A stretch of 64,000 nucleotides of DNA, taken from assembly GCF_040712315.1 (NCBI RefSeq), contig NC_134016.1:8841282-8905281 (forward strand), written 5' to 3'. The DNA comes from Castanea sativa. Taxonomy: Eukaryota; Streptophyta; Magnoliopsida; Fagales; Fagaceae. This document shows, in pieces, positions 632-50,498 of this stretch. The notes below the pieces were generated by a model. The model saw only the letters and a list, made by a program, of their open reading frames with translations, did no database searches and was not told the DNA's origin. The position numbers and the translations under genes were made by a program. Each line of letters begins with the position of its first letter. Position 1 is the first letter of the stretch.

Positions 632-632
632 G

Positions 633-9595: not shown

Positions 9596-9605
9596 GGACG
9601 AGGGG
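9596..9605 (+). other. Polypurine tract
   Basis: GGACGAGGGG ends four bases before the 3' LTR, where plus-strand DNA synthesis would be primed. One pyrimidine interrupts it. Confidence 0.6.
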
Positions 9606-9609
9606 CAAC

Positions 9610-16749: not shown

Positions 16750-17000
16750 GCTCGAAATTTTTTTTTAAATAACTATAAAATCAGAACTATATCATTAGTA
16801 AACGAAAGTTTGAAACAAATTTGGTTTCTAACAAATCGAGTCCAGAGAACTCGATTTTGGGCAAAGAAATCGAGTTCAATGGACTCGATTTGTTCATCTG
16901 CCAGCAGCTGACGTGGACAGGGAGGCCACGTCGGCCTAGAAATCGTGTCCATTGGACTCGAATTAAAAATGTAGTAAATCGAGTCCATTGAACTCGATTT
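16750..17000 (+). repeat. Left terminal inverted repeat of the MULE
   Basis: Inverted homologue of 43430-43579. Four copies of a 23-bp hyphenated palindrome lie at 16834-16856, 16868-16890, 16941-16963 and 16977-16999: AATCGAGTYCA, one base, then its reverse complement. GACGTGGACAGGGAGGCCACGT is shared in form with the right end. The outermost ten bases (GCTCGAAATT) lack a clear partner. Confidence 0.85.
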
Positions 17001-17060
17001 CCTTGAAGCTTAATTCCACTTAATCCCTCAATTTCAAACACTCTCACCATCTCTCTCAGT

Positions 17061-17424
17061 TTGGCTCTGAAATCTCTCTCAGTCTCCACCGTCTCTCACT
17101 GTCAATCTCTCAGTCTCTCCACCGTCTCTCCACCTCTCTCCACCGTCTCTCACTGTCAATCTCCCCGTCTCTCCACCTCTCTCCACCGTCTCTCACTGTC
17201 AAGCTCTCAGTCTCTCCCCCGTCTCTCCACCTCTCTCCACCGTCTCTCACTGTCAAATCTCTCGGTCTCCACCGTCTCTCCACCGGTTCTCCACCGTCTC
17301 TCACTGTCAAATCTCTCTCATTCTCCACCGTCTGTCAGTCACACCAGCGTCTCTCAAACACTCTCCCACCGTCTCTCCACACACCCAAATCCGACCCAAA
17401 GACCCAAATCATCTCCATTGCAAG
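17061..17424 (+). repeat. CT-rich tandem repeats in the PMD gene leader; 5' UTR exon
   Basis: A roughly 25-bp unit built on CTCTCCACCGTCTCTCACTG is repeated 8-10 times with variation, ending before a good donor CAAG/GTAAGT at 17424/17425. Position directly inside the TIR and before a leader intron suggests transcribed 5' UTR. Open frames in both directions here are repeat artefacts. Confidence 0.75.
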
Positions 17425-20309
17425 GTAAGTTTTTACTAATTTTCCCCTTCATTTTTCTGGTTCTTAATTTATTCTTGTGTTAATAAATGGTTGATTTTGT
17501 ATTTACATAATTTAATTTTTACTATTAATTGGCTAATGAAATTTGAGGGCATTTGTTGAGGAGGAGGAGGATAATCTGTGCTATATGTTCAAAGTCCAGC
17601 AAGATTTGGTTTTTGCATATGTCCTAGTTTATGATTAGTTTTAGGGTTATTTTACAAAAGAAATACAGTTGATAAAAATTTGGATAAATAATTAATGAAG
17701 TAGATAATATATATATATATATATATAAGAATTTGTTTTTGTTGCATGTAATATTATAGGTGTTGAACAATTATTGTATCACAGTAAAATCGAGTCTAAA
17801 AAATTCGAAATGTTAGTTTGCTAATTAGTTTGAAAACGATGTTAACTAACGTACATGTTTGAAAATGGGTGTCTTATGCCAATTTTCTCCAGGATTCCTT
17901 ACTCCTTTTATCTTTCAAATGCCCATTTGGTACTTTTTTTTTCACTTTTTTTTTTGTTGAAAATTTAGCACTATTAGTTTACCTTCTATATGTAAGATTA
18001 ACATAAACAAATGCATGAACTTTGTATAAGATTATACAATGTTATGCAAATGTGCACAATAAATGTAAACTAACAATTATCCATCCTCTTATTGGTTAAA
18101 AAATCACTCATTTTTAAAAAAATTGTAAAAAATAAATAAATAAACTACATCAATTTGAGGGCAAATGTGCACAATTATTGTTTATAATAGATTCTTTTAT
18201 GGTTTTTCTGTAATTGTGCTTTTTTTAATTTAGAAACAATAATTGTGCTTGTTTCCTTCAAACTAATATAATGTTCATATGATGAACAACTTAATTAAGA
18301 ATTATAATATAAACTAGAGACAAATATTTTAACCATACAATTAAATTAAATAGAAAATTATAGGGGATTATATAATTTACTAATGTTTTTAATAAAGGAG
18401 GGTCACTTGACACCAAGAGAATTTAGCTACTTAGGACAAATAACTTTGAGACACAACTAGTGAAAATTAGCACCCTTGAAAATCATTATCATTATTATGA
18501 TCATATTTGACACCATATTATCACACATTTTTAAGAGAGATTTCTCTAACAGGAGTTGCTTTTAGGCTCAACTAGTTTGATGGTGTAAGTGTGCATGGGA
18601 TTTCAATTTCATAAATGAACTAATTGAGGATTTTTCTTTGAAAAATTAACAGATAATATAGAAATTTACTTAATAGTTAACTAGCTATTCACATGGATGA
18701 GGTTAATACTTTTATGAAGTGCTTAAACACCTATCGTGCTTAGTCATGTCAGTTCATCAACTTGGAAAAGTTTGGGGGGGGGGGGGGTTCCCTTCAAAGT
18801 AGTACACTAAAAATTTCTAAAGCAAGTTAAAAACCAATTGGCACTAATTAAGCTACATTATGGGGTCAAATATTAGGGGCTCCTTAAGTTAAAACTAGTG
18901 GTTGGAAAAGTAAAAAACTATCATAGGTAGGCTACACTTACTAAATTAGTGGCCTAGGCCACCCCAATTGATACTACATTAGCCTTTCAATCCCCAAAAG
19001 CATGTGTGAATATATGGATGTAATATTTAGGGGATTATGGTGTAAGTCAAAGAAAATAGTCCTCCAACCATCTCGTACCTTTGGTATGGTCATCCCTATG
19101 TAAGTTGTTGGTTGAAGGAGACAAGGGTTTAGGCTTTTTTTTCTTTACAAACAATATAGCAATGCTTGCCAAACTTGCTTGGTATGCTATCACGTAAGAA
19201 TAACTCATGTTAGAATCCTATTAGCAAAATATAGGTTGGGAAGTAACTAGTTGAGGAAAAGTTCAACAAAGAAAGCACCATGGATGTGGAGAAGTTTGGA
19301 GAGGGTTAAGTCATTGTTGTCAAAAGGAACTTACCGCCTAGTTCGGAATGGGGACCTAGTTTGGGAGGATCACATCAATGGAATTCATATTTATTAGACC
19401 ATAGTAATTAATTACTTAATATGCGTTATTCCTAAGTCATAAGCCATAGTGAATTTGTTAAATTAGCAATAATTTATCCAATTTTTGCACACAATGAAGA
19501 ACTCTACAAGTAGAAATGATGGGGACAGATCGGTACCCACAATAGAGCCAAGATAGGGAACTGCACTGTGCAGTCCATCGGGCATAGCCTCCAGGAGAAG
19601 AAACAGTGGCTACTTGATGGTAGGCATACAGTCGTATAAATACATGACATGTTATATACTTGCAATGTGTTCTGTTCAGTCCTCAAATATTGACTGTACT
19701 GAAAAAACAAAGTAGGAAAGACAGAAGAAAAGAATTCCATCTCCCCCCCCCTAGCGGATAAGCAATGTAAATTTTATTCAACTAAGAAAAAAAAAAAGTC
19801 ATCCAATTAAGTACACAAATTACATCCTGTATACACCTGGGGACCAATACAATGAAGTACACAAATTACAAGCATCCATCAAAGCATAAACTGAGAAAAG
19901 AGAATGATTTCCTACAACTAAAATCTATTCCGATAACGTTTTATAGAGGAAAAGAATTCCATCTTTACTTGCCAACTTTACTGCAATCATAAACTTTGGG
20001 TTGGTTCTATCTTCTATTCAAAAAAATAAAAATAAAAGAACAAACTATGGGCTGAATTAATCATGCCATTTTGGAAGAGTAGGCATAATTTAATGGGACA
20101 CGTTTCAGATCTTTAGAAACAGCAGAATACTACCAACAAATTCGGTCATGCCAAAAAAATATCCTGGTAATATCTGCTAGAAATTCCTTGTATGTATTTT
20201 TTTGTGGGAAATGAGACTTGGGGACGGATTTACTTTAAAGAAATCATGCTAACTTCAAAGATATAAAGCTTTAGGCAATTGATGCATTTTCTTCTAATTT
20301 AATATGTAG
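17425..20309 (+). other. Probable leader intron of the PMD gene
   Basis: Donor GTAAGT at 17425; acceptor TTAATATGTAG ending at 20309, two bases before the ATG. AT-rich, with poly-G (about 18774-18787) and poly-C runs. A degenerate copy of the terminal palindrome lies at 17788-17810. No other gene found. Confidence 0.55.
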
Positions 20310-20310
20310 T

Positions 20311-23300
20311 ATGGCTGCCGTTGCTGGGGTGGATGATGAGTTCGGTCCTGGTCCCAGGGTTCCTTCGGTGTTAAGGTTTCTAACAGAACATCGATCATCT
20401 GCTGTTTGGGAAGGCCAGGTAAAATTAAAATCGACGACCTGCTAAATTTCTATATTCTTTTCTTATCCTTTCACATTATGTTGATTTTTTTTTTCATTTC
20501 TAAAATCCTAAGTTTGTCAATGGTATCACTAGCTTTGAATGCATAGTAATGCTCTTGCAAAATGGTCTCTAAATAATTATCTACCTCTTATCATTTTCAT
20601 TTTAGGTTATACTCCTGATTTTGTTGATGTAATTCTTCTTGAGCATAACCTTAATCTTGATATATAGCTTTTGTATTTTTGGTTTTTGTATAAAAAAAAT
20701 AAGAAGACTACAAACCCTTCATTAAATAAGTTGTCATAAACTCATGGAAATTCCAATTGAAGAACTTATAGTCTATTTTCCCAACAATAGCTACAATCAT
20801 TTATACAAAGGTTATGGCATATTACATCTCATCACCATGGTTCTATCATGTGTAGGATCCGGGGGTATTGAAATGTCGTGGTCGTAATGAGGAGTTTCGA
20901 AAACGAAGCCCGATGGTGGATGATCGCATCCTCGACATTGTCAAGAGAATTGGATTAGAGGGGCTGTATAGGACTCCATTTAGAGAGCTTGACCATAATT
21001 TGATAACGGCCTTTGTTGAGCGATGGCGGCCTAAAACCCACACCTTCCACCTTCCACATGGTGAGATGACGATCACATTACAAGACGTGGAGGTTCTGTT
21101 GGGGATTCCAATCGATGGTGAGGCAATTGTTGGAACTTGTGCCTTGAAATGGGCTGTTGAATGTCAAGAAATGCTTGGAATTGTTACTAATTCCGTGGTG
21201 CTTAAAGGACAGAGGATCCAAATCAAGAAGCTACTTGAAAAAATTGACCAAGGGTTGCCCGATGGTGCATAAGAGGTTGTTTTGCATCAGTATGTACGGT
21301 GTTATATTCTAGCACTCCTAGGGGACACAATTTTCGCTGACAAGTCTGGCGATAGGGTGCATACGATGTGGTTGCAGATGTTGAGGGACCTTCACAATCC
21401 ACCTCGGTACAGTTGGGGGAGCGCTTGCCTTGCATGGTTGTACAGAGAGTTATGCAGGGCAACCGACAAAAACGCTAGTCAGATTGGTGGGGCCTTAATA
21501 CTCGTTCAATATTCGGCATGGTCCAGATTCCCTTTCTTGTGCCCAAGGATGGACCTCCCACCAGATGGTGCATATGGCCCACCATTACCATCTTCGCCAT
21601 TGTCTATTAAGTAAGTCTCTTCCTTGACCGATTCTCTCTATTTTTTTTGGATCCATCATTTTAAACGATATGACACATTGAACTTAGCATTATTCAACAT
21701 ACATATCCTTTTTCTTTTTTATTACATTGCATATTTGGTAGATATTGATTTCCTCTTTCTTCATTGTAGGTTGGTTTGGGTCGTGAGCACGAAGAATAGC
21801 CCCGCCGAAATCTGTTTGGTTCGGTACCATCAGCTTCTAGATTCTATGTATCCCAACCAGGTATCCAAATTGTGTTTCTTGTAATGTTATCTTAGTGTAT
21901 ACTCTTATAACTGTAAAATATGTCAATTCAAAATAATTGAACATTGCATAATGTGTTGCGCTTTTTTTTTTACTACAACAGGTGGTGTGGCAACCATATG
22001 AAGCCGAATTAGGCCACCTGCCTGCGTTCTGTGTAGCAGGACGGGACAAGTGGATGGCGAGGGTGCCGCTTGTATGTTTCTGGCTAGTAGAGAAACATAC
22101 ACCGGATCGTGTTCTTCGTCAGTTTGGGATGGTGCAAGAAATTCCCGAAAATGTTGATACTGACGATGCCCTTCATAAGATAGACTTGAGGGGGAAGATT
22201 GAAGTGGATTGGAGGGTCAGACATTTTAGCCACATCCAAGTATGGAATACGAGAGCACAGAAACTATGTCATGGAGCACGACTAGAGGGTGCTATGTCGA
22301 GTGTTCATCCATACTTCGGCTGGTATGGTAAAGTCACATGGAGGTTTGTCGACCACACTAGCGCCTCTCTTCTTATTACGGTAATCGCTTTGACCTTTCT
22401 TTCCAAATTTTGTTGCGTATTACCATTTTTGCGTTACGTGTACTAATTGTATTACAACATTTGCAGGTCACCATGCACAAGCAAATGTTGATGCGTTATG
22501 TAGTAGACAGTCCTGAGCATAAGCTGATTACAGCTATGCTGAAGGAAGTGGATCGCCTTCACCGTCTAGCTGCCCATCTTCCCTTGGAAGATGCGGATAC
22601 AGCAAATCCAGAACTGCCAGAACATAATGCACGACCAAGCACGAGCTCAACTCCTGCCAGCCATAGCCATGGCCAGTGTGTTGCACCCCATCAAGGCCAA
22701 AATCAACCCCCTCCACCCCCACATGCTTATCCTGCCCCAGAGTTCCCTCCACCCCCACATGCATCACCTGCCCCAGAGTTCCCTCCACCCCCACATGCAT
22801 CTCCTTCCCCAGAGATCCCTCCTCGTAGTACTCCCGCATTTCCTGACCTACAGATCCCTGTACCCACTGCACATGCATCTTCTCACCCCGAGATCCCTTC
22901 ACCCACCCTATGTACATTTTCTGACCCCGCGCATCTATCCCTTACTCCACCATCCTTTCATCTCGGCATTGATTTCAATGACACCCCTCAGGTCATGCAC
23001 ACTCAATCTCCCTCGTACAGCATTGGTCATATACACCATGTACCACCCCATAGTGACTCCATGTCATTCATGCCCACTCCTGGACTGCATACAGCTCCTA
23101 TGACTATGAGCTTCACTCACATTTCGTCCGCTACACCATCCTCCCCCGCAGTTGTAGTATCTTCAGTTGTTGGGAGTCAAGCAAATCAACCAGCTGTGCA
23201 TGTTGAGAATGAGCAAGTTGATGAGCTACAGTCACCCCCACAAGGTCGGCCTAAACGCACAAGAAAAGCACCTCCTTGTGGGACAGGTGGTCACAAAGCA

Positions 23301-23516
23301 GGACACAAGGCTGGCCCCACGGTATGCATTGGTCATTTACTAGCTTTGAATACTTTCGTGACTGCTGTTATAGTTGGTATTAAAATTCATTTGATCCATT
23401 GTTTCTTTGTAACTTCGTCTTTGCAGCAACGCAAGGAGCCTGACCAAGGAGATGCGGTACCCCCTCCCCCACATACCAGACATTATACAAGACAGCGTAA
23501 GCGTCAAGTGCCATAG
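20311..23516 (+). pseudogene. Plant mobile domain (PMD) protein gene, one nonsense codon
   Basis: Coding exons: 20311-20418, 20856-21610, 21770-21860, 21982-22380, 22467-23321, 23427-23516. All introns are GT-AG and phases agree; 2298 bases give 765 codons plus stop. Residues 37-451 form the PMD fold, with motifs such as LKCRGRNEEFRKRSPMV, FVERWRPKTHTFHLPHGEMT, VEVLLGIPIDG, VWQPYEAELGHLPAFC and RVPLVCFWLVEKHTPDRVLRQFG. Residues 452-765 are a Pro/His/Ser-rich tail with tandem FPPPPHASPAPE units (about 22717-22830) and a basic GRPKRTRKAP patch. A TAA at 21270-21272 stops codon 175; everything after it stays in frame. Host PMD proteins (MAIN, MAIL1) act in silencing and genome stability; many PMD genes travel with MULEs. 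The nonsense codon is recent-looking because no other damage was seen. Confidence 0.88.
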
Positions 23517-23582
23517 GGTTAGCACCCCATCTGCCCATAACCCTATGCTTTTCAAGTGCCATAAGGTTAGCACCCCATCTAC
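23505..23582 (+). repeat. Tandem duplication across the PMD stop codon
   Basis: TCAAGTGCCATAGGGTTAGC at the stop codon recurs as TCAAGTGCCATAAGGTTAGC near 23551, followed each time by ACCCCATCT. Period about 46 bp, two copies. Confidence 0.8.
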
Positions 23583-24088
23583 CTCTCTTAACCCTTGATT
23601 GTTTATTGTTCCTTAACCCTAACAAGATTGTTTATTGTGCTCATATGCTCATATGCCCATATGCCATTCTTTCTTTTTTTGATATCATAGTCGTGAGTTT
23701 GGATTTTATACATAATGTTTATGTGCTTAATAATGAGTTTTATTTCTTTTGATGAATATGAATGTTCTTTGTAGGTGAACATACTTGTTGTTGCAAGAGA
23801 GAGTGACCAGTATTTGCAGTGGCAAAATTTCATCCCCATGAAGTTTGTGACTTTCTTACTTTCTTTCTGCATAATCAAAGAATATGAGTTAGTGTTCTAC
23901 AAATCTGTCATGTGAATCTTGACAAATTTTCTTATATTTTGAAAATTATGGTTGTTGTGTATTTAAACAAATAACTTTGTTAGATGCACTGATGTAATCT
24001 GGTCCAACCCATCTTCAATTTAGTTGCAATTAAGCTTTTGACTGCAGCAGATTTTCCTCTCATAATTTTGAATTGGTTTCATGTACAG

Positions 24089-24307
24089 GATATAGTTAAA
24101 TATGTTGAAAACCAATTGCAAAATATTGGTGGAAATGTGAAAAAGTTCTATTCTGATGTTGTCCAAGATGCAATAGTGGATTCTGTAAAGCGTGAAGCTC
24201 AAGCTGTGGCTTTGAAAAGTAATGCAGCTATTGGCACCTATTTGAAGTCAATGATGGGTGATGAAAAAAAGCAGGAAGTTACTGTCATAATGCAATCAAA
24301 TGTGCAG
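24089..24307 (+). pseudogene. Captured exon of an unrecognised host gene
   Basis: After an ATGTACAG acceptor a 73-codon open stretch begins DIVKYVENQLQNIGGNVKKF and ends near QSNVQH, with clear coding character (helical, mixed charge). I do not recognise the parent. At 24309 the sequence switches to a 25-base stretch otherwise found in the right MULE end. Then a RimP-like exon follows. Same orientation as all other captured pieces. Confidence 0.55.
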
Positions 24308-24663
24308 CACATGACACGTGGATGAGTTGGGGATGGAGTTGGAGGGGGTGGAATTTGTCTGGCAGGGACATGGTGGGATAAAGAAGCATTAAGGATAGCT
24401 GAAGAGGTGTCTCTATCATTTGATGGTGATCTCCAAATCTATGCCTTCAAAACTACTTTAAATTCCACCATTCAACTCCGCATTGACAACCTCTCTAACA
24501 AGTAATCTATCTACCTATCCTCTCAATTATAAAGTCTCATTCTACTTGAATATTTTTTCATCTTTTTAATTAAAAGAGTGGATGTTGAGTGCTTTGATTC
24601 ATTAGTGGTGTCAATCCCATAAATGTTGTGATGTCATGCTTGTATCCCACCAATTATATGCCT

Positions 24664-24666
<3 letters not shown>

Positions 24667-24694
<28 letters not shown>
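24667..24694. repeat. GA microsatellite
   Basis: Uninterrupted GA repeat in the RimP-like intron. Confidence 0.9.
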
Positions 24695-25402
24695 CGGAGC
24701 TTTATGTCTAATAACAATGATTGTTTTCTTATTCTAAACATCAATCTAGAAAACTAAGTCTGCTTTTATCAGATGCCATGATGTCAAGTTTCTTTTTTGT
24801 ATATTGTATTCATGATCCAATTCGCAAGACCGATGATTGGGAATATTGTTCTGGACAAATCTGGCTTAACCAAATTGAACTTGATGTGATGAAGTTTTTC
24901 CTGCGAAAAATGGTGATTTCTCGAGTTCAATAGATCCCTGGAAACTGTTTTTCTTTCGTTGATTTTTCATGAATGGGCAAGTATGTTTTAGAAGTTATAC
25001 TTCTTTCATGCACATTCCAATTCTTTCCCACACATTACTCCTATTATTTTTATAACTTTATGAGACTTCTCTGCTATATATTTTTATTCTTCATAGTTTT
25101 CGGTATGCGAATGTGCAAATTTAAAGTAAGTCGTGGGTTTGGATTGGTTGATAAAATGAGATTCAAAAAATACCCATAGCCCCAAATGGTTGGGCTGTAC
25201 AGGAAAAGAGTTATTTGTGAAGTTAAATTATGTCTCATAATTCAATTAGGAGATTGACACAATTTTTCCTACCTTTAAGGGATTTGACGGAAGGGAATAG
25301 TTTCATACAGACAATTGGCCTGAGAAGGGAGAAAGGTGCATAAAATTTATAAAAAAAATTCTGAAAGTATGTTTTAAGGCTCTAAACAAACTCAACTGGT
25401 GG

Positions 25403-25500
25403 GCTTTGACTAAAATGATACTTCTTCTCACAAGAGTGGCGGGTGGAGGGTAAGGTTGTGAGTTTAGAACTCACTAGGTGCATGTGTAACGTATCAATAA
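25403..25500 (+). repeat. SINE-like fragment
   Basis: A-box-like start (GGTGGGCTTTGACTAAAATG), B-box-like GTGAGTTTAGAACTCAC and a 3' end AACGTATCAATAAAAAG. The tail style resembles Au-type plant SINEs; assignment is tentative. Confidence 0.4.
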
Positions 25501-26229
25501 AAAGAAGACTCTAATCAAACTTAAGCCTTTTGACTTTGTGTCAAAGGTGTATGAGTGTGTCAGGCCAAATTCATTTTATTTTTCCATTTAAATTTTTCTC
25601 ATATGTAATTGATTAGAAAAATTTGTTGTTGTTTTTAAAAAAAAAAAAAAAAAAATTATTTCATGTGATCAGATTTTCTTGCTAAATGTAACTTTCTATA
25701 AATCATACATGCCTTTTGCTTAATAATTAAAGCTTCTACAGCTTTAACTCAATGTGATTTGCAGGTCTGGTTCCCCCAGTATGGAAGATATTGAAGCCTT
25801 TTCTGTAACCTATAGAGCACGTTTAGATGAAGCATAGCTCAATAGATCTATTCCTGAGAATATATCTTTGGAGGTATCTGTTTCCCAATTGTTTTCATTT
25901 TTTAGTGTTAATTTGGGTGGGGGAGACTCAACTCTACAACATAGAAACCTTAAATTTAATTTATGGGTGTAGATGTACCTAGCTGTGCACTTGACATGTA
26001 GGCCTGTCTTTGATAGATCAAATGATCAATTATATTATTTGAGACGTGTTGTTTGTTTCAAACTCTTTTCAAGATTGAAAGTTAATATAGGTGAATCTGT
26101 AATAATAACTATTGTTTCAAACTCTTTTCAACCAGTATATTTTTTTCTTATTTTCCTGGTGTATTCTAGATCTCTACCTCGTGGATTTTCAAGTTGTTTT
26201 TAAGGTCTAGTAATGCACTAATTCCTCTC

Positions 26230-32501: not shown

Positions 32502-34043
32502 CCCTTAGGGTTGCCCTGTGACAGCATCAAATTAGAAAAAAGGGAGGGCTCAGACCTTGCTATCCTCCCCTAACCCACACACACCCCATAATGAAAAAAA
32601 AGTAAATATCTCTCAAGTCTCAACAAGGCCATTATACTCTTGATTTCACAAAAATCAAGTTATTCGGCATGTGTTGCACTTAGATCACAAGCCATTGAAA
32701 ATCTATGGAGACATGAGCATATGTTCTTGCTGTTGACATAGTTTTCCACTTTATTATTCCATACAAATCTGTAATATGATGAGTCAAAATATTCCCAGTT
32801 GTAGTTGCAAACCTTGTCCTTAGTGTTTGCTGTAATATGATGAGTCAAAATACAAGGCTCACAGTGCTTGCTGTTGTTCCTTGACCAAATTGGATATATA
32901 TCATATGTCTGGCTGCATAACTTAGATAAGTTAATTGGGGTAGCATTTGTATTTTTACTTAATATGACAGCAGAGCTGCATTTTTAACCTCTACTTTTGG
33001 GTAGCATTGAAGTTCATCTTATTGTTTGGGTCAGGCTTGGTTGTGCTATATCATTATTGTTATGACATGTACATTACTACTTAAGATATATTGCTGATTC
33101 GGAAGGTTCTTACAAATGGTAAACAAATCTGGTCACAAGTCATTTTTTAATATGTATACATGTATATAACTCAAACTTGAAAAGAAGGAAACATTGTTCT
33201 TTAATTGTAGCAAACTATTTACAAAATCATAGGATTGCTGTTTATTTATCTTTGATTTAAAAATAATTTATGCATGAAAACTATCTATTAGGAGAGGGGC
33301 GACATAGTTATGGTTAACATGTGAACGATGGATTTCTATTTTTAATTCATGGATCTTTTCCTAACTGTCTCAAAAGGTTTAGAATTTGTCATAGTTTGGT
33401 TATCTAGGTGAACATATTTGTTTCTTTTCTAGTAATTTATCTTTTGGTGTTGATCAAATATACCTACCTGACCTTAAAAAGTTCATGCACTTGACATCAA
33501 TCTGCCTGGTTTAATTTTTAAGGTTCAGTAAGTTTAGGTTTATAGATGAAATTATATGTAACTCATATGTGATGATGATGCTAAAAAAAATGCATGAAGT
33601 TAAAATCCATTTGTCTCCGTACTTTCAGCTTGGAGGTATTCCCCTATTTAAATCTTGACGATAAAGTGGATTTATGGGTTCTACTTCTAGATACAACCCC
33701 TGTGTGTGTGATTAATCTATCTTTGTCTTTCATTCTCTCTAAGAATGTGTGAGTTATAATATGTTGACTGTTACAGCAGTGAGAGGGGGATGACATATCT
33801 AGTCCGACATCATTGTTTCATTATCCACTATGTTGGGTCAACATTTGAATCATATACTTCTTATCTTTTTGTTAAATGGAATCATATACTTTTTATCTTT
33901 TTGTTGAATGCTAATATTTTAGTTCATCAATCTGCTCTACTTTGGAGATTGCAGTAGTTTACTTGTGTTTATTATAGCCACTTTCTGTGGAGCTGAGTTT
34001 GTCTAACTGTGGTCCTCAAGTATGTTTCCAAAATGTTCTGCAG

Positions 34044-34151
34044 GAATCATTGGCACAATCTCATGGCTCGCAATTTGGGTTTTGTACTCCGGGTTTTATC
34101 ATGTCCATGTATGCCTTGCTGAGGTCATGTCAAACACCACCTAGTGAAGTT
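34044..34151 (+). pseudogene. XDH: Captured xanthine dehydrogenase exon ([2Fe-2S] domain)
   Basis: Follows a TTCTGCAG acceptor. The 36 codons include [20 protein letters not shown] and TPPSE, the second iron-sulphur segment of xanthine dehydrogenase, a purine-catabolism enzyme. The family has Cys at the position that is Phe here (SQFGFC versus SQCGFC), so one cluster ligand is lost. The sequence after SEVE no longer matches XDH and leads into unknown sequence before the SRP68 fragment. Confidence 0.75.
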
Positions 34152-34330
34152 GAAGGGACAACCTTTTGTGTCTGAAGTTGAAGAAGAGCAGATAAATTAT
34201 TTGCACATTGATTCGAAGGGTGAGAATTTTGTAGATAGGGTACATGGGACAATTTTGTAGATAGGATCAGCTGCTGTAAATTAATAAAGCTTCCAACTTT
34301 TAACAGTTTACGTTACTTGGATTTGAAATA

Positions 34331-35814
34331 GGTTTCTTCATCTTGTGCTTTACACGGCGAGAGAGAGCTTGGAGCCATGCCATGGAGAAGAGGCAGCTTC
34401 CGGATGGTCCAAATTCGCGTCGGCGTATCTATTTGATTGGAAGGCCGAGGAAAGCGGTTAAATGGGCTACACTGTTTGCTCGGTTGTGCGCAATCAAGGG
34501 AGATTCCGAACATCGTTAGAAGCTGAGGTGTTGCTATAATATATCATTTCACCGTCAAGTTTTCACAGGATTTTGAAATGCTTGAGGGAGTATGAATGAT
34601 CTGTGGGTCTTGTTCAAAACTATAGGCTATTTAATCAGTGTATCACTTTTTACCATTAACACATTGAATCATATGTTGATTATTGAATTGCTGCCTAATT
34701 TTTTTGGATATTGAATGTTTTGATACTTATCTTTTGATTACTCTATTTTGAGAACTATCTTTTACTTAATCTAGTTTTACATAACTTCTTCCATTTTCAT
34801 TTTGCTAACTTTCAATTTCCAATATGTAGGCTTATGCCTCCTATATGAAAGGGAACTTCTTGTTTGAACAAGATCAGAACTGGGACACAGCATTAATGAA
34901 TTTCAAAAGTGCCAGGTGCAGTCTTGTCTCCTTAAATATACTGATTTTTACTCTTGATACTTTGCCATTGGAAATGAATTTGATCATCAAATCTCACCTC
35001 AAAAATAAAATAATAATGAATTAATTGATTTAGGCGTAAATTAATTTTGAGTGGAAATTTATCTCAGAAATCCCTTTGACCTGTTCCTTGTTTGGTCTAT
35101 AAATGAAAGTGAATTTCTTTAAAATTGCAGCTTAGCCGAGATCTACACACGTCAATAATTGAGGGAAGGTTTCCAGAGTATGTTTTTCTTTTGCTCCCCC
35201 CCCCCCCACCCACTCATTTTCTCTTCCTCTTTTCTCTTTCACGTCCTTCTGAAGTAGCCATTCTCCATTCTTGTTCGGTAAATAACTTTATGCCGCTTAA
35301 ATTCCTCACTTCTATCTTTTGGGTAATGACTATTTTAACATTCTTCTCAATCTTATCTTATTGTAGGTTTGTATGTAATTTTTTGCGGATAATGGTATAT
35401 TTATTAAATTCTTTAAGTACCATGAGTTAAACCAAAATAAAAGCCTTCGATGGTTTCCGGCCACAACCGGATATTTGGCGATGATTATATTTTATGCAAC
35501 TATCCTGTTTGTGAAAAATATACCTTTTTCTCTTGCTTAACTAGTGCACTTGTAACTTCTCTGAATTTATTCAAGTATGGTTGTGTCTGCTGGTTTTTTT
35601 TCTCCCCTTCTTTACTTTTATAGTCCAAAAAGTCTCAAGTTTTGCTTTGTGTCTCAAGTTTTGCTTTATGTGACAAATTTGTTCAGCTCAAGAATTGGAA
35701 AAAGATTTACATGGTCCAGCCGCAGATTCACTGCCAGCAGAGAAAAGACTGGCCATCTTTGACAAAATTTTTACTGCATATCATGAAGCCAGGAGCTGCA
35801 TTCGTAGTGACTTG
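34331..35814 (+). pseudogene. SRP68: Captured SRP68 fragments, three exons, interrupted
   Basis: Exon pieces 34331-34527 (AWSHAMEKRQLPDGPN, IYLIGRPRKAVKWATLFARL), 34830-34915 (AYASYMKGNFLFEQDQNWDT) and 35687-35814 (QELEKDLHGPAADSLPAEKR, IFDKIFTAYHEARSCI). These are in the order found in the 68-kDa subunit of the signal recognition particle, which targets secretory proteins to the ER. Donor and acceptor sites are preserved. A one-base indel near 34508 shifts the end of the first piece. Exons between the second and third pieces are missing and a different gene's exons (35131-35394) occupy the gap, so this is a shuffled mosaic. Confidence 0.8.
35131..35394 (+). pseudogene. Captured fragment, probable queuine tRNA-ribosyltransferase C-terminus
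   Basis: 35131-35177 encodes LSRDLHTSIIEGRFPE and 35367-35394 continues FVCNFLRIM across a GT-AG intron with matching phase. The LHxSIIEGRFPEFV pattern resembles the C-terminus of the catalytic queuine tRNA-guanine transglycosylase subunit, which modifies the wobble base of some tRNAs. Only about 25 residues are available, so the assignment is moderate. Confidence 0.5.
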
Positions 35815-36056
35815 GTATGGAAAGTTACTTCATAATGTCATTGTTTTATTTCTATTAGAAGTGAGGTCCATTTAACCCCTAGAGATAACATGGTTGGGAG
35901 CCATGACTCATGTTACGGAGGTTGGTCAATGTGAGTTCAAATGTTGTTTTGTTATTTTCTCTGATTTCTCTATTCACATGAGAGAAAAGTAGAAGTTTAA
36001 TTGGCTGAATATTGACTCTTTTTTTTTGTTTTTTTTTGTTTTTTTTTTTGTTTCAG

Positions 36057-37196
36057 TTTGATGGATTCCAAAAAGAGGCTATACAGATGGTGAAGCCAGC
36101 AAAGGGAACCACCACACTTGCGTTCATATTCAAAGAGGGTGTCATGGTTGCTACTGATTCTCGAGCTAGCATGGGAGGCTATATCTGTATGTTATTTCTG
36201 TTCTTTCTTTTTTCCTATCTTGCATATAATTATATATGGGTTTTGGATGCTGATTTTGTACATATCAATTTCTTTACAGAAACTAGACTTGTTGTTGATG
36301 ATCATGCTTATGTCTGTAGTTACACAAACATGCTCACAGTTAGCTTGGTATTATAAATTATCCTTTGTTAGTTAACTGGAATAGCATGTATTAGTTCCTT
36401 TTCGAGATAATTGACTAATTAATGTTGCAAGTGACAGTAATCGTAGTGTTCAATTGCATTGTCTAAAGTGGATGGGAAATGTCATGTTGCACTTACTCTT
36501 TCTTTCCTTATCTTATCAGCATCACAGTCTGTAAAGAAAATCATTGAAATCAATCCTTACATGCTTGGCACTATGGCTGGAGGAGCTGCTGACTGTCAGT
36601 TTTGGCACAGAAATCTGGGCATTAAGGTAATGTATTAAAATGATTGTGCTGTTTTCCCCAGATTCAGAACATATTTTTTCAGGCATGTTGGCTCCAAATC
36701 ATTTGAGTCAGTGACTGTATAACGATTATTATAACTTAGTATCGTTAGCTTTATGCTGTTTGCTTTGTAGTGTTGATGTTATCAGGAAAAGTCCAATTTG
36801 TTAAGCGACCCTTTTTAGTATAGTGAAGTCTTATTGCTTTGTATATACATTAGGCAGCTAGAAATTGGTGTAGTGGTGGCTGGTCCAATGCCCACTGAAG
36901 AGACCATAGCCTAGCCATAGAAAATAGCCTGGCATGCCTTCGTGTGAATATAGCATACGATGTAGGCACTTTGTTTTTACATATTCTGCACTTGATCAAT
37001 TTATATAGCATACGATGTACAGGATGCTTGAGAATTGTGGTGTAATTTGGACTTGTTCTTTTTATCAGTTTATTATGTGGGACCTGATGGATGGAAAAAG
37101 CTCTCTGGTGATGATGTTGGAGAGCTTCATTACCACTACTATCCAGTTATGCCGAGCACAGTGGAACAGGAAATGGTTGAAGTAACTGGGGCATAA
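36057..37196 (+). pseudogene. PBE: Captured 20S proteasome beta-5 gene, middle deleted
   Basis: Exons 36057-36186 (FDGFQKEAIQMVKPAKGTTT, LAFIFKEGVMVATDSRASMG), 36520-36626 ([33 protein letters not shown]) and 37069-37196 (VYYVGPDGWKKLSGDDVGEL to a TAA stop). The catalytic Thr of the mature subunit (GTTTLAF) and its natural stop and 3' UTR are present. About 125 codons between the second and third pieces are absent, and the interval 36627-37068 holds no coding sequence. Beta-5 provides chymotrypsin-like activity in the proteasome core. Splice sites are intact, so a spliced truncated transcript is possible, but it lacks most of the fold. Confidence 0.88.
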
Positions 37197-38854
37197 AGCT
37201 CTTGCCGAACTTGGACTCGCTATAGATGTTTTCTCCGTAGGAGATGGGGGCCTAAAATCCTTTAAGCACATGCATTTCCAGTTGGTCTTTGAAACAATTT
37301 ATAGATAGACTTGTCTCTAAGGTTATATCACTTATCAGAGCCCTATGATTCATGGCTGTGTAGTGTTGTTGGACAGACTATTGTTGCTAATTGTTCTAGA
37401 GTTTTAATTAAATTCTATTTGGTTTTACCATTTTTTAGTTCTATGTGTGTGCGCGCTTTCATGGCAATACCTAAGAAAAATCTTGCTTTAGCTGCTGCTC
37501 TTGTGGGCAATGGAAGACCTCATTTGGTTTGAGAGGTTCTAGTAACAAGAGACTTTATTTGGTTCAGTAACAATGATATTGTAGAGTTTTACCCAATGTT
37601 TATGCTAGTATCTTTTTGGGAAGGAATGATTGAGTATATAGTATATACCAATAATATGGAACTTAAAGGAGATGAGGTATACCATTGGCCACTAGTTAAT
37701 TTAAGTAGAAATGTTTTAAATTCCATTTTGCACCCAATGCATATTCCAGTAACCCAAAAAAAAAATCTCTTTCCATGCTGGGGTGTTCTGGGCGTTTAGC
37801 TTATTTTGGCTTCAGCATTTTTACTATTTTTTACTCCCCAAATCAAATCTGAACATGTACATGTTATTTAAAATTGGCCATTTCAAAAAGTTTGATTCTT
37901 CTTTTGAAAATATTATAGGAAAGGTATTTGAAATGACTCGGTTGTTATTCCTGATATTTTCGTAGTATAAACATTATCATTCAAATTATAATAAAAAAAA
38001 CATTATTATGTATTGAGTAATGACCAAAGAGTGGGATGATAAATTATTTTTTAGTTATTATATTTATTTTGTGAGGCATATTTAGTTACTATTGTAGTTA
38101 TTTTAGTTTTATTCACACAATTTTATTTAAAACTTTGACATGTTTACAACACTTTTTAAATAGTACGCCAATTGCCAAATGCTATAAATATATTCAAAAT
38201 TTTTGGCATAACAATTTTTTTATTTATTTAAACATGCTCATAATATTAACTAGTCATAAACTCACAATAACTCTATTACAAAATAGTTAGACTCTTATAA
38301 AAAAAAAAAAATTATTTTCACTTACAACTTTTTAGGAGAAAAACTCTCCATCTAAAACTTTACACCATACAAACTCCCCAAATTCGAGTTTCCAGGCAGA
38401 TGGCTCAGCCCAGAGAGTTGGGACAAACTCGATCCCTATGAAGTCGATTTTTACTAGTTTTATTCTCAATTTTTTATTCATTACTTTTTTCGTATCCTTT
38501 TTTTCTTACTATTTTTTACTTACTTTTTTTTTTTCATTTATTTATATTACTTTTTTTTCTTAAATTTTTTTTACAATTTTCTTTATAAAATTTTTTTTTT
38601 CCTACATTTTTCCATTTTTTTTCTTACTTTTTTTTTTCCTTTCTTTTGCTTTACTAATTTTTCTTACCTTTTTTTTCCCATTTTTTTTCTTACCTTTTTT
38701 TTTTTCCGTTTTTTTGCTTACTTTTTTTTCCTTTTTTTTTTCTTATTTTTTTTTTGCTTTTTTTTCTTATAGTCTCAACAAGAAGCACCAACACAGATGA
38801 GTATAACAGCTAATAGAAATAATTAACAACTAATTGAAAGATAAAATTAACCAT
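37197..38854. other. Spacer between captured genes and mudrA; poly-T tracts
   Basis: The start is beta-5 3' UTR. A long C/T-rich run with many T tracts fills 38460-38770. A degenerate copy of the MULE palindrome lies near 38426-38449, after a TTCGAGTTTCC half-site at 38382. No gene recognised; a short open frame at 37441-37532 has no clear family. Confidence 0.5.
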
Positions 38855-39145
38855 TCATAATATCACAATATAGAAACAGATACATTGGATACAGAATACT
38901 TCGATTACAAGTGCATTCAGTGATAAAAGAAAATAATAATTGTGCCGATATAACCCAGTAGTAAGTTCAAATACACAATAAGGAGAACCACAATTTACAT
39001 CTAGAATGGCATTCCAAAATCGAGTATCTGCATACCTGAGAAAAATTGAAATATTGTCGTTAGGTACCAACAGCCAAAACAACGGTACTAATCTATGTAA
39101 CTTGGATGATTGATACAATCATGAAATTTTATATAAAAGCATCAC

Positions 39146-41903
39146 TTACCTAGGTTGGGTATTGCTTGTCGAAGCCCCACGAGAAAGCGGACATTTTCTA
39201 CGGTTATGCCCATGTTGATGACACAGTCCATAGCTCTGCTTTTGTTGAATCTCCCTCAAGTCAGAATCTGGCCTTCGGCTTCCCGGTTTTCGCCGGACCC
39301 CATCCATCTCATTCCGTATCCTAGACTTCACAGGTCGGCCTTTGGCCCGCAACAGGTCTGGGTCAGGCACCCACTTTGGACCTTCCACATCCCTCCACAA
39401 TGACTCTGACTTTGGCACCACAAATTGGTGTGAGTAGGTGCGAATGGCGTTGTCCAAACTATAACATGGGTCAATATATGCAGTTCCATCTTGCCCCAAG
39501 TACTGAAGAACTGTAATCGCATGTGAACAAGGGATCTTTCGATTTTGCCACTTTCCACAACCACATGTTCTGGCCAATATTTTTACTTCATGACTATGTT
39601 GTCCCCCTCCAGAGCTATGGATGTTGTACGCAGTCGTTACTTGATATACACCATGGACATTATTAAACGGCCTTACTTGGTGTGTTTTAGATTTTTTCAA
39701 ATTTGCATCAAAGATTTCTAAGGCATATTTACTCCACACCTTGCCCTCCAAGAGATCATGAGTAATTTTTTTGTGTCGATCATGGAATTACGCAACAAGT
39801 TTGCTCCAAGTGAATTCAACCAGTGCAGCAATGGGCAGGCCACGGGCACCTTTGAGTACTCCATTGAAGCACTCTGAGACATTGGTTGTCATAGCCCCAT
39901 AACGGTATCCACCATCACGTAGCTGGGTCCACTTCTCTATATCCTCTTTCATTAGATATGTGTATGGCATGATGGATGGGTCAGGTTCACTTACCTGTTG
40001 TTCAGTGGCTGATTTCTTCCTAAGGGCCTCGATCTCGGCTTCCTTGATAGGTTGCATGTACAACTCAAATTTAGCTTCCTGAGTAGCATACCCCGCTTTC
40101 AAGGCCAATGACTTTAAAGTGGCGTCTTGAAAATGCGTGTTGAAGTTGCTAGCAACATGTCGAAGGCAATATCTGTGGTATACTCGTACTCGTCCATGAT
40201 CATCTCTAGGCCAGTTGGCAATTGCATTTCGAATACCCTTATGTCGGTCAGAAATTATGCATATGTCCTTATTTGCTATCACATCCCCCAGTGCAAACCT
40301 GACGCAATCTAAAAACCACCTCCAACTAGGCCCTGACTCTTTGTCCACAACAAAGAAAGGCGAGAGGCAAAACCTTGTTGTTGGCATCGGTGGCCATTGC
40401 AATCATCAACACCCCTCGATATTTACCATACAAATGGGTCCCATCAATACTGATTACTGGTTTACAATGTCTGAATCCTTCAATGCAAGGAGCGAAAACC
40501 CAAAATACATATCGCAATATTGTAACACCTTCCTCCCTCGGTTCAGTGAGATACCAGTACCGGGTGCCAGCTTCTTGATCCAAGTATGCCAACAACAACT
40601 TTTTCAGCCTTTCGTAAGACTCTTCCCAATCGCCGAATATCTTTGCAATAGCCCTTTGTTTCGCATCCCATACCTTATAGTAAGAAAGCTTATGTTCATA
40701 ATACTTCCCTTTGATGTAATCTCTAAGGTGTTGAATTGTTGCCGTGTGATTTTCTCGCAACATTGGAACAAATTCTGCTGCAAGAAAATTACAATCCATC
40801 ATTCTACCATCAAGAGCCATGCCAAGGGTCATACAACTGTGAGGACCCCCATAAGATGTGACCATCCATGTTCCCTGTTTAGGCTTCATCACTGCTCCAA
40901 CGTACCACTTGCATGACTCATCCATGCATTTCACATACAGTCTACTTTTGGTCGACCTACTAGTCAGAAAGTTTCTGTTATGCTTTGCGGCATAAATTGT
41001 TAATGCACGTTTCACAGCTGCTTTATTCGCAAAAATCAAGCTCGTACAAAAATTCATGTCCGCATTCCAAGAAGAAGCAAATGCTTGCTCACCAACTTCA
41101 GGATCAACCATATTTTCCCAAGTATTTTCATAAAATGATAAGGCGGGAGGTTCATAAACGGGGGTTGCATTTGTAACATGCTGAACTCTAACAGTAGGGT
41201 TTGCATCATCTTCATCACATTCATCCATATCATCAACATTAGGATTGAGAGTAATTTCATGGTCATCAACACCCCTATCAAAGTCACCTCGCTCAATCCT
41301 CTCTTCGTACTCATCTCTATCGTCAAGATCTTCCCCAACACAGTGTTCGTCTTCAGCTTCAACTACTGGAACTGTAGAGGATTCACCTCGATGTGTACAA
41401 AATTGATCTTCATATCTATTAACAGGTTCGCTCTCAACTGTTCTTGGTGTCTCTTGAAAAGGGGGTGTATAGCCGCCCAACGTGGTGCACTGATCATCTA
41501 GGACTGCAAACTGTAGAGATGTAGTTGTTTGTACAATATCCTCTATGCCGACTTCTGCACGCGGCTCCAAAGTGACGTACAACTCAAAATTTGCTATTTG
41601 TTCCCATTGACGCATCTTGTGAAACATGAACTTCACATGTTTGTCTTATGTTATCGCCATATATCTGTAATTAATGCATTGATTGAGGACTTCATGTGGA
41701 GAACGGAAAGTAATATGTATGTCATGCAAAGCAGGGTTCAGTTGCAGCTCTTCCATAATTTTTATCTTCAAATCACTTAAGGTCTTTAACTTATGGCGTA
41801 TCATCATATAACAGCACTGGATACCCGGACCTTGAAATGGAAATCCGTCATAAGGGTTGGCATTGCTAAGGGATCCACCGTAGTATATATTTATATAGAT
41901 CAT
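39146..41903 (-). pseudogene. mudrA: mudrA-type MULE transposase, broken
   Basis: Start chosen at 41903, where MIYINIYYGGSL opens the PB1/ubiquitin-like N-terminus usual in mudrA. An acidic linker, the MuDR DNA-binding region, and the MULE DDE domain follow: first Asp in VISIDGTHLYGKYRG (near 40443), second in IISDRHKGIRNAI (near 40255), likely Glu in SECFNGVLKGAR (near 39860). The SWIM zinc finger CGCGKWQNRKIPCSH is near 39530-39575, and a C-terminal knuckle CHQHGHNRRKC near 39200. Damage: TAA at 41646-41648 (codon 86), a frameshift near 40360 and TAA at 39788-39790. The frame ends at a TAA that overlaps a GTAAGT donor, so a small further exon (acceptor near 39037) is possible. The protein cuts and joins MULE ends; this copy cannot. 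Confidence 0.9.
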
Positions 41904-43139
41904 TATCAACCTATAGATCATCAAGTGCAATTGTGTTAGTGACAAATTTATAACTCTCAATCAACATCAATCACAAAACTTTGGGTATGACATGCCAACA
42001 ATACTAACCTCAACCAAATTTGCATATACTCACATCCAAATCATTCTAGAGGCATGACTTTCAAAACCCATTCAAATAAGATATGATGAACAAAAATATT
42101 ATAGCAACTAGTTACCCATTGAAATCTTTGTTACAAATCTGAAACAACTATATCTTGAAATAATTTATACTAAAAAGACTGTAATGGGTGTCTTAGGTAT
42201 CAAACTCATAATTCATTTCATACCAATGACAAAAACCTAAAAGTACTAAATATTCCTAACAATTGATCACAATATTTAGTACTAAATATTCCCAATATTA
42301 ATTTTGAATAAAAACCTAGCATAATCACAATATTTGGTACTAAATATTTCCCCAATACTAAATATTCCCAATAATTAATCACAATATTAATTTTTTTTTA
42401 AAACCTACAAAATAATTTAATCACAATATTAATTTTTTTTAAAAACCTACAAAATAATTTAATCACAATATTTACACTAACAAAAAATAAGCAAATATTC
42501 CCAATATGTTGTAATAACATAATTAATCACAATATTTGGTACTAAAAATTCCCAATTTACAATCACAATATTAATTTCCTAAAAAAAACTTAGCAAATAA
42601 TTTAATCACACTATTTACACTAACAAAAAAAAAATTTCCAAATATGTTGTAAGTTATAATCACAATATTTAGTACTAAGTATTTCCAATAATTAATCATA
42701 ATAATAATTAAAAAAAACTAACAAATAATCACAATATACTAACAAACTACCCACAAACAAACAAACTAATCACAATATTTACACTAACAAACTACCCACA
42801 AACAAACAAACTAATCACAATATTTACACTAACAAACAAAAAAACAAAAATTTTCCTAATATGTTATAATTGTTTCTTAAAAAAAAAAAAACCTAGCAAA
42901 TAACCACTATATTTAACTAACAAAAAATATTATCAATATTGTAAAAAACATTACCTGAGAGTTGATGAAAGTTGATGAAAGATGAGTGTGATTGTTGTGT
43001 GAGTGAAGTAAGTTGTGTGAGTGATGAGGGTTGTGTGAGTGGTGCTGCTGTGAGAGCAGAAGAGAAATGAGAGCATAAGTGAGCCGGGTAAGGGGGAAAA
43101 AGGTCCCAGTTGGGACCCACATGACACGTGGATGGGTTG
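41904..43139 (-). other. mudrA leader region, AT-rich
   Basis: On the minus strand a leader exon likely ends at CAACTCTCAG/GTAATG near 42951, before a long AT-rich intron full of CACAATATTT/AATATTCCC repeats (42240-42900). Layout mirrors the PMD leader at the other end. Confidence 0.45.
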
Positions 43140-43579
43140 GGGACCATTCACATCGAGTTCAGGAGACTCGATTTTTAGAAGCAAATAAATCGAGCCTCCT
43201 TGACTCGAGTTACATCCACGTGCCTGAAAACCATGGTGCCCAAAAATCGAGTCCAGTAGACTCGATTTACCTTAAGTGATCACGTGACCAAAAACCGAGT
43301 CCACTGGACTCGATTTACTAAAGTGATCACATGCACCCCCGTGAGTGTGAAACATAGAAATCGAGTTCATTGAACTCGATTTTCTTGACCAAAAATCGAG
43401 TTCAACAAACTCGATTTTTGTGCCTACGTGGCCTTCCTGTCCAGCTCAGCCAGTGCCGCGATGGAGAAATATAAACCGAAAATCGAGTCCAATAGACTCG
43501 AATTGTTAGAAACCAAATATGTTTCAAACGTTTGCTTACTAATGATATAGTTTGAGTTTTGTAGTTAGTTCTGTAAAAA
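43140..43579 (-). repeat. Right terminal inverted repeat of the MULE with palindrome array
   Basis: Outer part (43430-43579) is the inverted match of the left end. Seven copies of the 23-bp palindrome lie at 43151-43173, 43188-43210, 43245-43267, 43293-43315, 43359-43381, 43394-43416 and 43481-43503. CACGTG G-box words lie between some of them. The array makes this end longer than the left. Confidence 0.85.
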
Positions 43580-50368: not shown

Positions 50369-50498
50369 ATAATGAATCAAGTAAAGAAGTTCTTTAATGT
50401 ATCAACTTGGAACTTCCAAATAAGCTGGCTTTTGTAAGTTTGCTGGTTCTATCTCTATTCCATGTTCGGGAGCTATATAGCCTCTCATAAACAAAAAT

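Follow-up and report, generated by a model that had tools for sequence, protein, structure and literature searches.

Most descriptions of gene capture by MULE transposons concern small elements that have no transposase. A 64,000-nucleotide stretch of the Castanea sativa genome (here the window; positions in it carry the prefix w) contains what a first-pass annotation took for one exceptionally large MULE, holding a mudrA transposase gene, a plant mobile domain (PMD) gene, and multi-gene host cargo. The locus raises the question of whether all of this belongs to a single transposon or to separate ones that enclose host DNA. Here, we compared the window with sister copies elsewhere in the chestnut genome and established the ends of the element, its 9-bp duplications, a recurrent chassis, a variable bay, and the presence of the same cargo at several sites.

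Extent and genes of the window element

The window copy is a single MULE of 26,830 bp (w16754 to w43583), and it has the features that define the superfamily: mudrA-type transposase domains, a target-site duplication (TSD) of about 9 bp, and long terminal inverted repeats. The left end (w16754 to w17002, + strand) comprises a terminal inverted region and subterminal palindromic repeats of the AAATCGAGTCC..GGACTCGATTT type; the right end (w43357 to w43583, − strand) comprises subterminal repeats and a terminal inverted region with the tip GGCGTTTTTACAG. The inverted match of w16758 to w16861 with w43476 to w43579 is 81% over 104 nt, and homology between the ends spans about 220 nt, with 181 of 212 aligned positions identical and an alignment score of 149 compared with 30 for the best of 300 shuffles. 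The inverted ends noticed at first pass were thus upheld, but the bounds proposed with them, 16750 and 43579, are each 4 bp off, comparison with sister copies having fixed the ends at w16754 and w43583. Flanking these are CCTACGCTC on the left (w16745 to w16753) and CCTACACTC on the right (w43584 to w43592), which match at eight of nine positions.

Pfam matches on the + and − strands of the window bear out the convergent PMD and mudrA genes, which lie about 15.6 kb apart and are separate genes on opposite strands, not parts of one polypeptide. The PMD gene (w20311 to w23516, + strand) has several exons and a Pro-rich tail, the start at w20311 and the exon edges being our reading of the sequence; its domain matches (PF10536, w20856 to w22443, + strand) fall in three pieces with E values of 6e-24, 1e-21, and 4e-20, and an in-frame stop interrupts it at w21270. 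The mudrA gene (w39149 to w41645, − strand) is broken: it has a stop at w39788 and changes frame around w40330 to w40400, and its DBD_Tnp_Mut, MULE, and SWIM domains are split across three separate frames. Both genes are present, as the first-pass annotation held, but both are broken in this copy, which from its reading frames is predicted to be unable to make either protein whole. Sister copies have open mudrA frames of 937 amino acids (aa) in two cases and 898 aa in a third; the open frame of C11_639 matches MULE (8e-18), DBD_Tnp_Mut (8e-9), and SWIM (2e-7). PF10536 occurred in none of the 33 listed relatives of the transposase, so no PMD-transposase fusion was seen among these relatives. 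A scan of viral contigs with mudrA gave two pattern matches, of which none was confirmed.

A family of copies with paired ends and perfect duplications

Both ends recur in the Castanea sativa genome in the same relative orientation as in the window, which is what a genome search with the terminal sequences had been expected to reveal. We scored 40 of 414 right-end candidates and 40 of 454 PMD candidates. Of 40 scored left ends, 18 (counting that of the window) have a partner among the 40 scored right ends. Among the 22 unpaired right ends, five were paired from sequence, C9_68 was chosen for its cargo, and C4_223 was read in part; four of the 22 unpaired left ends were examined further, and the right end was reached for one (C5_181, which lies outside the 40 PMD loci). 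This gave 24 other end pairs (17 + 5 + 1 + 1), paired by eye. The left end of C4_223 lies outside the sequence examined, and this copy stands outside the bay mapping and the mudrA-frame, window/C11_538 block, and pN/pS comparisons. Block comparisons of copies display BLAST pieces of at least 60 bp that are not contained in better ones. Scored PMD copies are found on 12 of 13 contigs, and 25 of the 40 scored PMD loci (window included; matched by eye) lie no more than 34 kb from a scored right end that matches them in orientation.

A perfect 9-bp TSD flanks 23 of the 24 other end pairs examined. The exception is C7_80, where the TSD is absent and the flanks agree at six of nine positions. For C8_45 the TSD is ATAAAATTT on both sides (9/9) when read at the GAAC start of the family; automatic scoring at a shifted place gave 8/9. 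Altered right tips occur in C5_222 and C10_181 and altered left tips in C11_53 and C6_45, their TSDs being counted as read. When flanks of the window and the 23 perfect pairs (C7_80 set aside) were mispaired, the maximum over 552 combinations was 7/9, which rules out chance as the source of the TSDs; none of the 552 attains the 8/9 of the window, whose flanking near-duplication is thereby substantiated.

Fourteen of the 23 TSD-perfect elements measure 12 to 25 kb and the other nine 1.9 to 8.7 kb. Full-length copies with perfect duplications, proposed at first pass as a check on one large transposon, are present, and all 14 elements of at least 12 kb carry both PMD and mudrA, with mudrA in the window orientation (compared directly in seven and through 300-bp samples, at 96 to 99%, in the other seven). 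Contents were read for two of the nine short elements, C10_192 and C5_181. Long members share one layout: left end, PMD gene reading inward, mudrA gene reading inward from the opposite side, right end. Several family members, and not the window copy alone, are exceptionally large.

Across copies, pN/pS was 0.39 for PMD exon 2 and 0.41 for mudrA, both from pooled pairs that are not independent. The PMD tail gave 0.59, with stops in two of eight copies; the PMD comparison covered copies other than C7_80 and C10_192, which are without PMD, and skipped gap and stop codons. The captured cargo also gave 0.59, on too few changes for a test of selection, and with cargo and PMD tail at this value, selection on the chassis stands out only weakly.

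Cargo, its origin, and the unity of the element

A cargo bay (w23536 to w38374) separates the 3′ ends of PMD and mudrA and differs among the nine sister copies mapped whole. Its left edge falls at w23535 in five sister copies and at w23547 in a sixth, and its right edge at w38375 to w38411 in three; further copies break elsewhere, and the edges are not identical across all copies. Bays of different copies contain pieces of different host genes, as seen in four of five listed bays, where frames of 55 aa or more without a stop were scanned once low-complexity sequence had been filtered out.

All recognized host-gene pieces between the two genes of the window lie on the + strand. A xanthine dehydrogenase fragment with the [2Fe-2S] domain (w33978 to w34172) is followed by an SRP68 fragment (w34304 to w35832), whose three pieces stand in profile order with intron-like gaps, two of them below the Pfam cut-off, and by a fragment of proteasome subunit beta type-5 (w36009 to w37193) that reaches the last residues of the protein. 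The middle exons of beta-5 were not seen in the window; a decayed form of them is present in sister C11_53. These three substantiate the host-gene cargo noticed at first pass. Pieces taken for an S1 RNA-binding domain gene (w26214 to w30597, + strand) match weakly, best at w30445 to w30597 and under curated cut-offs, and the outer pieces may, on our reading, belong to the same gene. Coding-looking pieces at w24060 to w24502 (+ strand), tentative candidates for parts of a RimP-like gene, had no usable match in the libraries searched.

Cargo is shared between insertions. The window and C11_538, at two sites with different TSDs, have about 22.9 kb in common in three blocks with 189 mismatches, and the same 3.4-kb cargo occurs at 98% in both and in C9_68, at a third site with its own TSD. 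Identity of the cargo is 92 to 99% among verified elements and 71 to 91% against two presumed host beta-5 loci. The cargo is closer among elements than to these loci, which suggests to us that the capture is old and the spread recent.

Another agent, a Helitron or a segmental duplication, might have delivered the cargo into the bay of a MULE chassis that then carried it passively. Helitron captures habitually lie on one strand, as the recognized window cargo does, and the capture of several different genes with introns kept is in line with such delivery. However, differing cargo is found at the same bay edges in several copies, a pattern that favours repeated, chassis-linked events, and we regard delivery by another agent as unlikely. 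Helitrons have TC...CTRR ends, no TSD, and a RepHel protein; the whole element, with its inverted ends and TSD, is not itself one.

We consider it very improbable that the locus consists of a PMD-bearing and a mudrA-bearing MULE, adjacent or nested, that trapped host DNA between them and whose outer ends match by coincidence or shared ancestry. Single-gene elements exist: C5_181 (C5:18154841-18163511, 8.7 kb) carries PMD only, and C10_192 (5.0 kb) carries a truncated mudrA only, each with a perfect TSD. On the surface, these are the separate, complete elements that a pair of parents would leave. Yet each has one left-type and one right-type end, like the two-gene elements, and we therefore read them as deletion derivatives of the family, not as two independent parents. 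C11_639 joins w23069 to w38503 and has no cargo. Subterminal-type repeats also occur internally, beside the 3′ end of mudrA; they are clear in C12_216, C4_223, and C5_222, and a degenerate stretch with such motifs, recognized by eye and under the score cut, adjoins the gene in the window (w38375 to w38460). These motifs would accommodate a fusion of two MULEs in the distant past. The terminal tip is absent from the internal repeats of the sisters, and, its own subterminal repeats excepted, the interior of the window element has no match to either terminal region scoring above 41, whereas the true partner reaches 119; matches of w38290 to w38460 to the window element are limited to poly-A/T-type stretches. 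Furthermore, the outer ends are flanked by identical 9-mers, and the same arrangement with its TSDs is repeated at 14 of 14 loci for the long TSD-perfect elements. For the present long copies, two separate MULEs are thus rejected, and a pair survives solely as a possible origin of their ancestor. An assembly artefact, or a lone degenerate locus without wider meaning, would explain why both genes of the window copy are decayed and nothing else, and is refuted by the family, with copies on 12 of 13 contigs and TSDs that differ from one examined site to another.

With a probability of roughly 0.88, the window contains a full-length and decayed representative of a giant-MULE family in chestnut, whose long members combine a fixed PMD/mudrA chassis with a variable host-gene bay. 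The first-pass reading of a single element with transposase, PMD, and multi-gene cargo is supported by the recurrent end pairs, the TSDs, and the two genes in every long copy.

Proposed mobility and comparison with known systems

In the mechanism we propose, a MURA-type transposase from intact sisters would recognize both ends, probably via the subterminal ATCGAG/CTCGAT repeats, and move the entire 12- to 27-kb unit. Host DNA, introns included, may enter the bay when breaks are repaired or templates switched, and captured cargo would then be multiplied by transposition, re-sorted, and eroded through deletions. The host PMD proteins MAIN and MAIL1 are silencing factors, and because of this the PMD protein of the element would most likely aid escape from host silencing. 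More tentatively, at somewhat less than even odds, these copies may represent a Fagaceae lineage of giant self-mobilizing transposons of 12 to about 27 kb, with a coding PMD and mudrA chassis and a bay marked by an internal subterminal-repeat array; host genes with their introns would repeatedly enter this bay, multiply, and pass between elements, even those with different left ends, and PMD would be an anti-silencing helper that lets so large an element persist.

With transposase-bearing elements whose multi-gene cargo reaches about 14.8 kb and has been inserted at several sites, plant DNA transposons become a vehicle by which blocks of introns and exons can be moved. Copies with the same chassis and different cargo form a natural series whose junctions record capture, exchange, and loss. 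Among the open-licence titles and abstract openings listed in a literature search, none indicated a MULE with a separate PMD gene or one with mudrA and multi-gene cargo. The giant Starship transposons of fungi combine a conserved mobility gene, a tyrosine recombinase, with interchangeable cargo; they resemble the chestnut family in pairing a mobility gene with swappable cargo and differ in their unrelated enzyme and fungal hosts.

MuDR of maize is about 5 kb, with two convergent genes. Like MuDR, the chestnut family has a mudrA-type transposase, long inverted ends, a 9-bp TSD, and a second gene opposite mudrA (PMC9168764), the last in the window as well as in all 14 long sisters; here, that gene bears PMD, long members reach 12 to 27 kb, and there is a multi-gene cargo bay. 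Abermu MULEs, compared by description, share the 9-bp TSD, the transposase with an opposite extra gene, and above-usual size: many members have the oppositely oriented ORFR, of unknown function, and the termini are 5′GGG...CCC3′ (PMC9168764). The Abermu reference is 8.2 kb, and among the Table 1 spans free of nested elements the longest is about 15.4 kb (PMC9168764), so "exceptionally large" holds for the window element against these published sizes. The multi-gene captured cargo found here is not described for Abermu in the sections of PMC9168764 covered.

Pack-MULEs likewise hold host gene fragments between MULE ends. They are without transposase genes (PMC6446971), usually 2 to 3 kb long (PMC9168764), and have a median captured size of 305 bp (PMC8277862), whereas here a bay of about 14.8 kb rides with mudrA, which the window copy has in broken form and all 14 long TSD-perfect sisters also carry. 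VANDAL/KIU and Ulp1-bearing MULEs also carry a helper or host-derived gene, VANC acting in anti-silencing, and those of Arabidopsis are described as non-TIR MULEs (PMC13317346); the helper protein differs from that of the chestnut family, and the passages of PMC13317346 covered describe no large cargo bay. Several grasses, and also Amborella, have MULE transposases with a fused PMD-C domain, for which an anti-silencing use has been speculated (Ikeda et al. 2017, PMC5418596). The common trait is a MULE-borne PMD; in this Fagaceae genome it is instead a separate, convergent gene, apparently constrained beside mudrA, and with it the published anti-silencing conjecture becomes directly testable.

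Extent and genes of the window copy

The inverted terminal homology that the first-pass annotation had proposed for this Mutator-like element (MULE) was confirmed: the ends, 81% identical over 104 nt in a first scan, are homologous across about 220 nt (identical at 181 of 212 aligned positions) and align with a score of 149, whereas none of 300 shuffles scored above 30. The suspected 9-bp flanking near-duplication is a target-site duplication (TSD) matching at 8 of 9 positions; mispaired flanks of the window copy and 23 TSD-perfect elements agreed at no more than 7 of 9 across 552 combinations. Given this control and the perfect TSDs of sister copies, the exact element spans w16754-43583 (w, position in the window), or 26,830 bp, with edges set from TSDs and sister copies. 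A TCTCCACCGTCTCTCACTGTCAA-type unit is repeated in tandem at window positions 17083 to 17333, past the left end and before the PMD gene.

The gene with the plant mobile domain (PMD) lies on the + strand, where three exon pieces match Pfam PF10536; mudrA, with DBD_Tnp_Mut, MULE, and SWIM domains, is on the - strand, so that the two genes converge, as had been claimed. Host-gene cargo between them was likewise recovered as pieces of xanthine dehydrogenase (XDH), SRP68 (two of three pieces in the window score below Pfam's cutoff), and proteasome beta-5, together with a weakly matching S1-domain gene piece, all on the + strand. A further coding-looking piece near w24.1-24.5k is tentatively taken to be RimP-like, an identity that none of the libraries searched supported. 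The recognized cargo pieces in the window copy are gene fragments. Its PMD gene has an in-frame stop at w21270 and its mudrA is spread over three frames (stop at w39788, frame change near w40330-40400), so this copy is unable to make either protein whole.

Outside the MULE, direct repeats at window positions 1-631 and 9623-10253 (97.5%) flank a 1277-aa frame, giving the stretch 1-10253 the appearance of an LTR retrotransposon. The MULE copy C4_223 contains an 86% relative to the left of its mudrA (copies are named by contig and approximate position). An inverted pair of ~1 kb (11385-12406 and 50498-51514; 79% alike, about 39 kb apart) flanks the MULE on both sides, with partial similarity also at 49371-49645.

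A genome-wide family of long two-gene elements

The genome (716 Mb, 13 contigs) was searched with both terminal sequences, the check that the first-pass annotation had proposed. The right end (w43300-43600) gave at least 78 matches (40 of 414 candidates scored) and the left end (w16740-17060) at least 106 (40 of 602 scored). Pairing the two lists by eye on contig, orientation, and distance yielded 17 loci besides the window; five further pairs were read from the sequence surrounding right ends, one (C5_181) from four inspected left ends without a listed partner, and one (C9_68) was picked because of its cargo. Same-orientation pairs thus recur, and 23 of these 24 have a perfect 9-bp TSD at the element edge, C7_80 being the sole pair without one. 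C5_181 contains PMD, at a locus outside the 40 scored for that gene, and its right end has diverged (80-84%). The same right end accompanies two left-end subtypes (GAATTTTTTTTT... and GAACAAAATTTTTAAATAAC...), which are 75-77% alike, as though left ends had been swapped. Within 600 bp at C10:9204050-9204622, two left-type ends adjoin back to back in opposing orientations; one of them is part of a TSD-perfect element of 5.1 kb.

Of the 23 TSD-perfect elements, 14 reach 12 kb or more, in lengths that may include nested insertions: C11_538 (22.8 kb), C12_442 (25.3), C9_308 (21.8), C5_222 (18.8), C1_496 (23.0), C11_53 (22.5), C6_04 (20.0), C10_181 (19.7), C12_489 (23.4), C9_363 (20.4), C12_216 (19.5), C8_45 (14.6), C11_639 (12.5), and C9_68 (23.4). 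The other nine measure 1.9-8.7 kb, and contents were read in two of them (C5_181 and C10_192). C4_223, outside the 14, includes 10 kb of DNA that is 86% similar to the w105-10262 element of the window. That a single element carries both genes held throughout: all 14 long elements have a PMD match in place and mudrA in the window's orientation, the latter seen by whole-copy comparison in seven and in the other seven from a 300-bp sample at the predicted right-end distance (96-99% identical).

Scored PMD loci (40 of 454 candidates) occupy 12 of the 13 contigs, and for 25 of them, window included, the 40 scored right ends include one within 34 kb in matching orientation; no fitting partner was found among those 40 for the remaining 15. 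One of the 15, C5_531, runs through PMD to w23535 and then into >9 kb of other DNA, reaching no right end, and part of this stretch is common to the variable cargo stretch (bay) of C5_222. At C3:49960949-49994429 and C4:22277376-22306020, PMD and right end lie 33.5 and 28.6 kb apart in matching orientation; these are possibly still larger members, or swollen by nested insertions.

Between the window copy and C11_538, three aligned blocks cover about 22.9 kb and contain 189 mismatches (w23579-27509 is missing from C11_538); the two sites carry different duplications. Such copies at sites with different TSDs argue for past movement of units in this size class. At a third site, C9_68 has the window's 3.4-kb XDH-SRP68-beta-5 cargo at 98% identity and bears the second left-end subtype; this cargo is therefore common to elements with different left ends.

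Constant chassis, variable bay, and one-gene copies

When the window copy and nine sisters were mapped, PMD blocks appeared in all copies except C7_80 and C10_192; every copy had mudrA blocks, those of C10_192 being truncated, and the middle varied. On the left side of the bay, shared sequence runs to w23535 in C5_222, C6_04, C5_531, C5_181, and C6_201 and to w23547 in C12_216, directly beyond the PMD stop codon; the right bay edge is w38375-38411 in C4_223, C5_222, and C12_216. Breaks fall elsewhere in C11_538 (w23578), C11_53 (w23944), and C8_45 (w26114 and w38565), and C11_639 joins w23069 to w38503 with zero cargo.

Pfam searches of stop-free frames in four other bays identified TIP49 and gelsolin (C5_222); proteasome, a [2Fe-2S] domain, and SNF2 (C11_53); SRP68 and proteasome (C6_04); and WD40 (C12_216). 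C11_53 keeps decayed middle beta-5 exons, not seen in the window, with their introns, so capture was at the DNA level; the window's beta-5 looks like a later, shortened version. Beta-5 is only 71-91% similar in pieces to two presumed host loci (C3:41221828-41225643 and C6:26978132-26978883) versus 92-99% among verified elements. SRP68 or beta-5 pieces occur at many further genome loci, counted as loci and not as elements.

Frames of mudrA reach 937 aa in C7_80 and C11_639 and 898 aa in C12_216. Relative to the C11_639 frame, three of 10 copies are free of in-frame stops (C11_639 itself, C7_80, and C8_45); gaps break the frame in C8_45 (longest mudrA frame, 591 aa), and C12_216 has one stop and two gap positions. 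PMD exon 2 is stop-free in seven of eight copies, the window being the exception, and the PMD tail has stops in two of eight (C5_222 and C8_45). Pooled pN/pS, from nonindependent pairs, is 0.41 for mudrA, 0.39 for PMD exon 2, and 0.59 for the PMD tail; cargo gives 0.59 on few changes. These values suggest constraint on both proteins, with cargo not clearly different.

A segment amounting to about 10-15% of the mudrA protein has matches (58-60%) within P0147-P0152 and P0140, proteins of Castanea and Quercus whose source names are mostly disease resistance proteins. P0140 joins a MULE domain to PF23598 and PF25019, presumably leucine-rich repeats; such proteins may be gene-model fusions or contain an exonized MULE piece.

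One-gene elements superficially like those that the first-pass annotation had named as evidence against a single unit do exist, as C5_181 (8.7 kb, PMD only) and C10_192 (5.0 kb, with only a truncated mudrA), each with a perfect TSD, but both use the same end pair. Since C7_80 (mudrA and cargo, PMD and TSD absent) also has these ends, we read all three as derivatives of the two-gene element. It is possible that the family itself began with an ancient fusion of two MULEs: palindromic subterminal repeats of the family's own, lacking the terminal tip, adjoin the right bay edge in C12_216, C4_223, and C5_222 and could be its trace. At the corresponding window stretch, such repeats fell below the score cut used for the sisters.

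Comparison with known elements

Among titles and abstract openings returned by searches of open-licence literature, we found no MULE with a separate PMD gene, mudrA, and multigene cargo. For several grasses and Amborella, MULE transposases with a fused PMD have been described (PMC5418596), but those elements have one fusion protein, whereas in chestnut PMD and mudrA are separate genes on opposite strands; PF10536 occurs in none of the 33 listed transposase relatives. Anti-silencing use of the fused PMD is speculation in that paper, and a review proposes PMDs made by transposable elements as a counter-silencing strategy (PMC8616336). Abermu MULEs exceed 8 kb and have an extra gene in opposite orientation (PMC9168764). 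Pack-MULEs are described as without transposase (PMC6446971), with a median capture of 305 bp (PMC8277862); the chestnut element works like them as to cargo but carries a transposase gene, and its right filing is among the MULEs.
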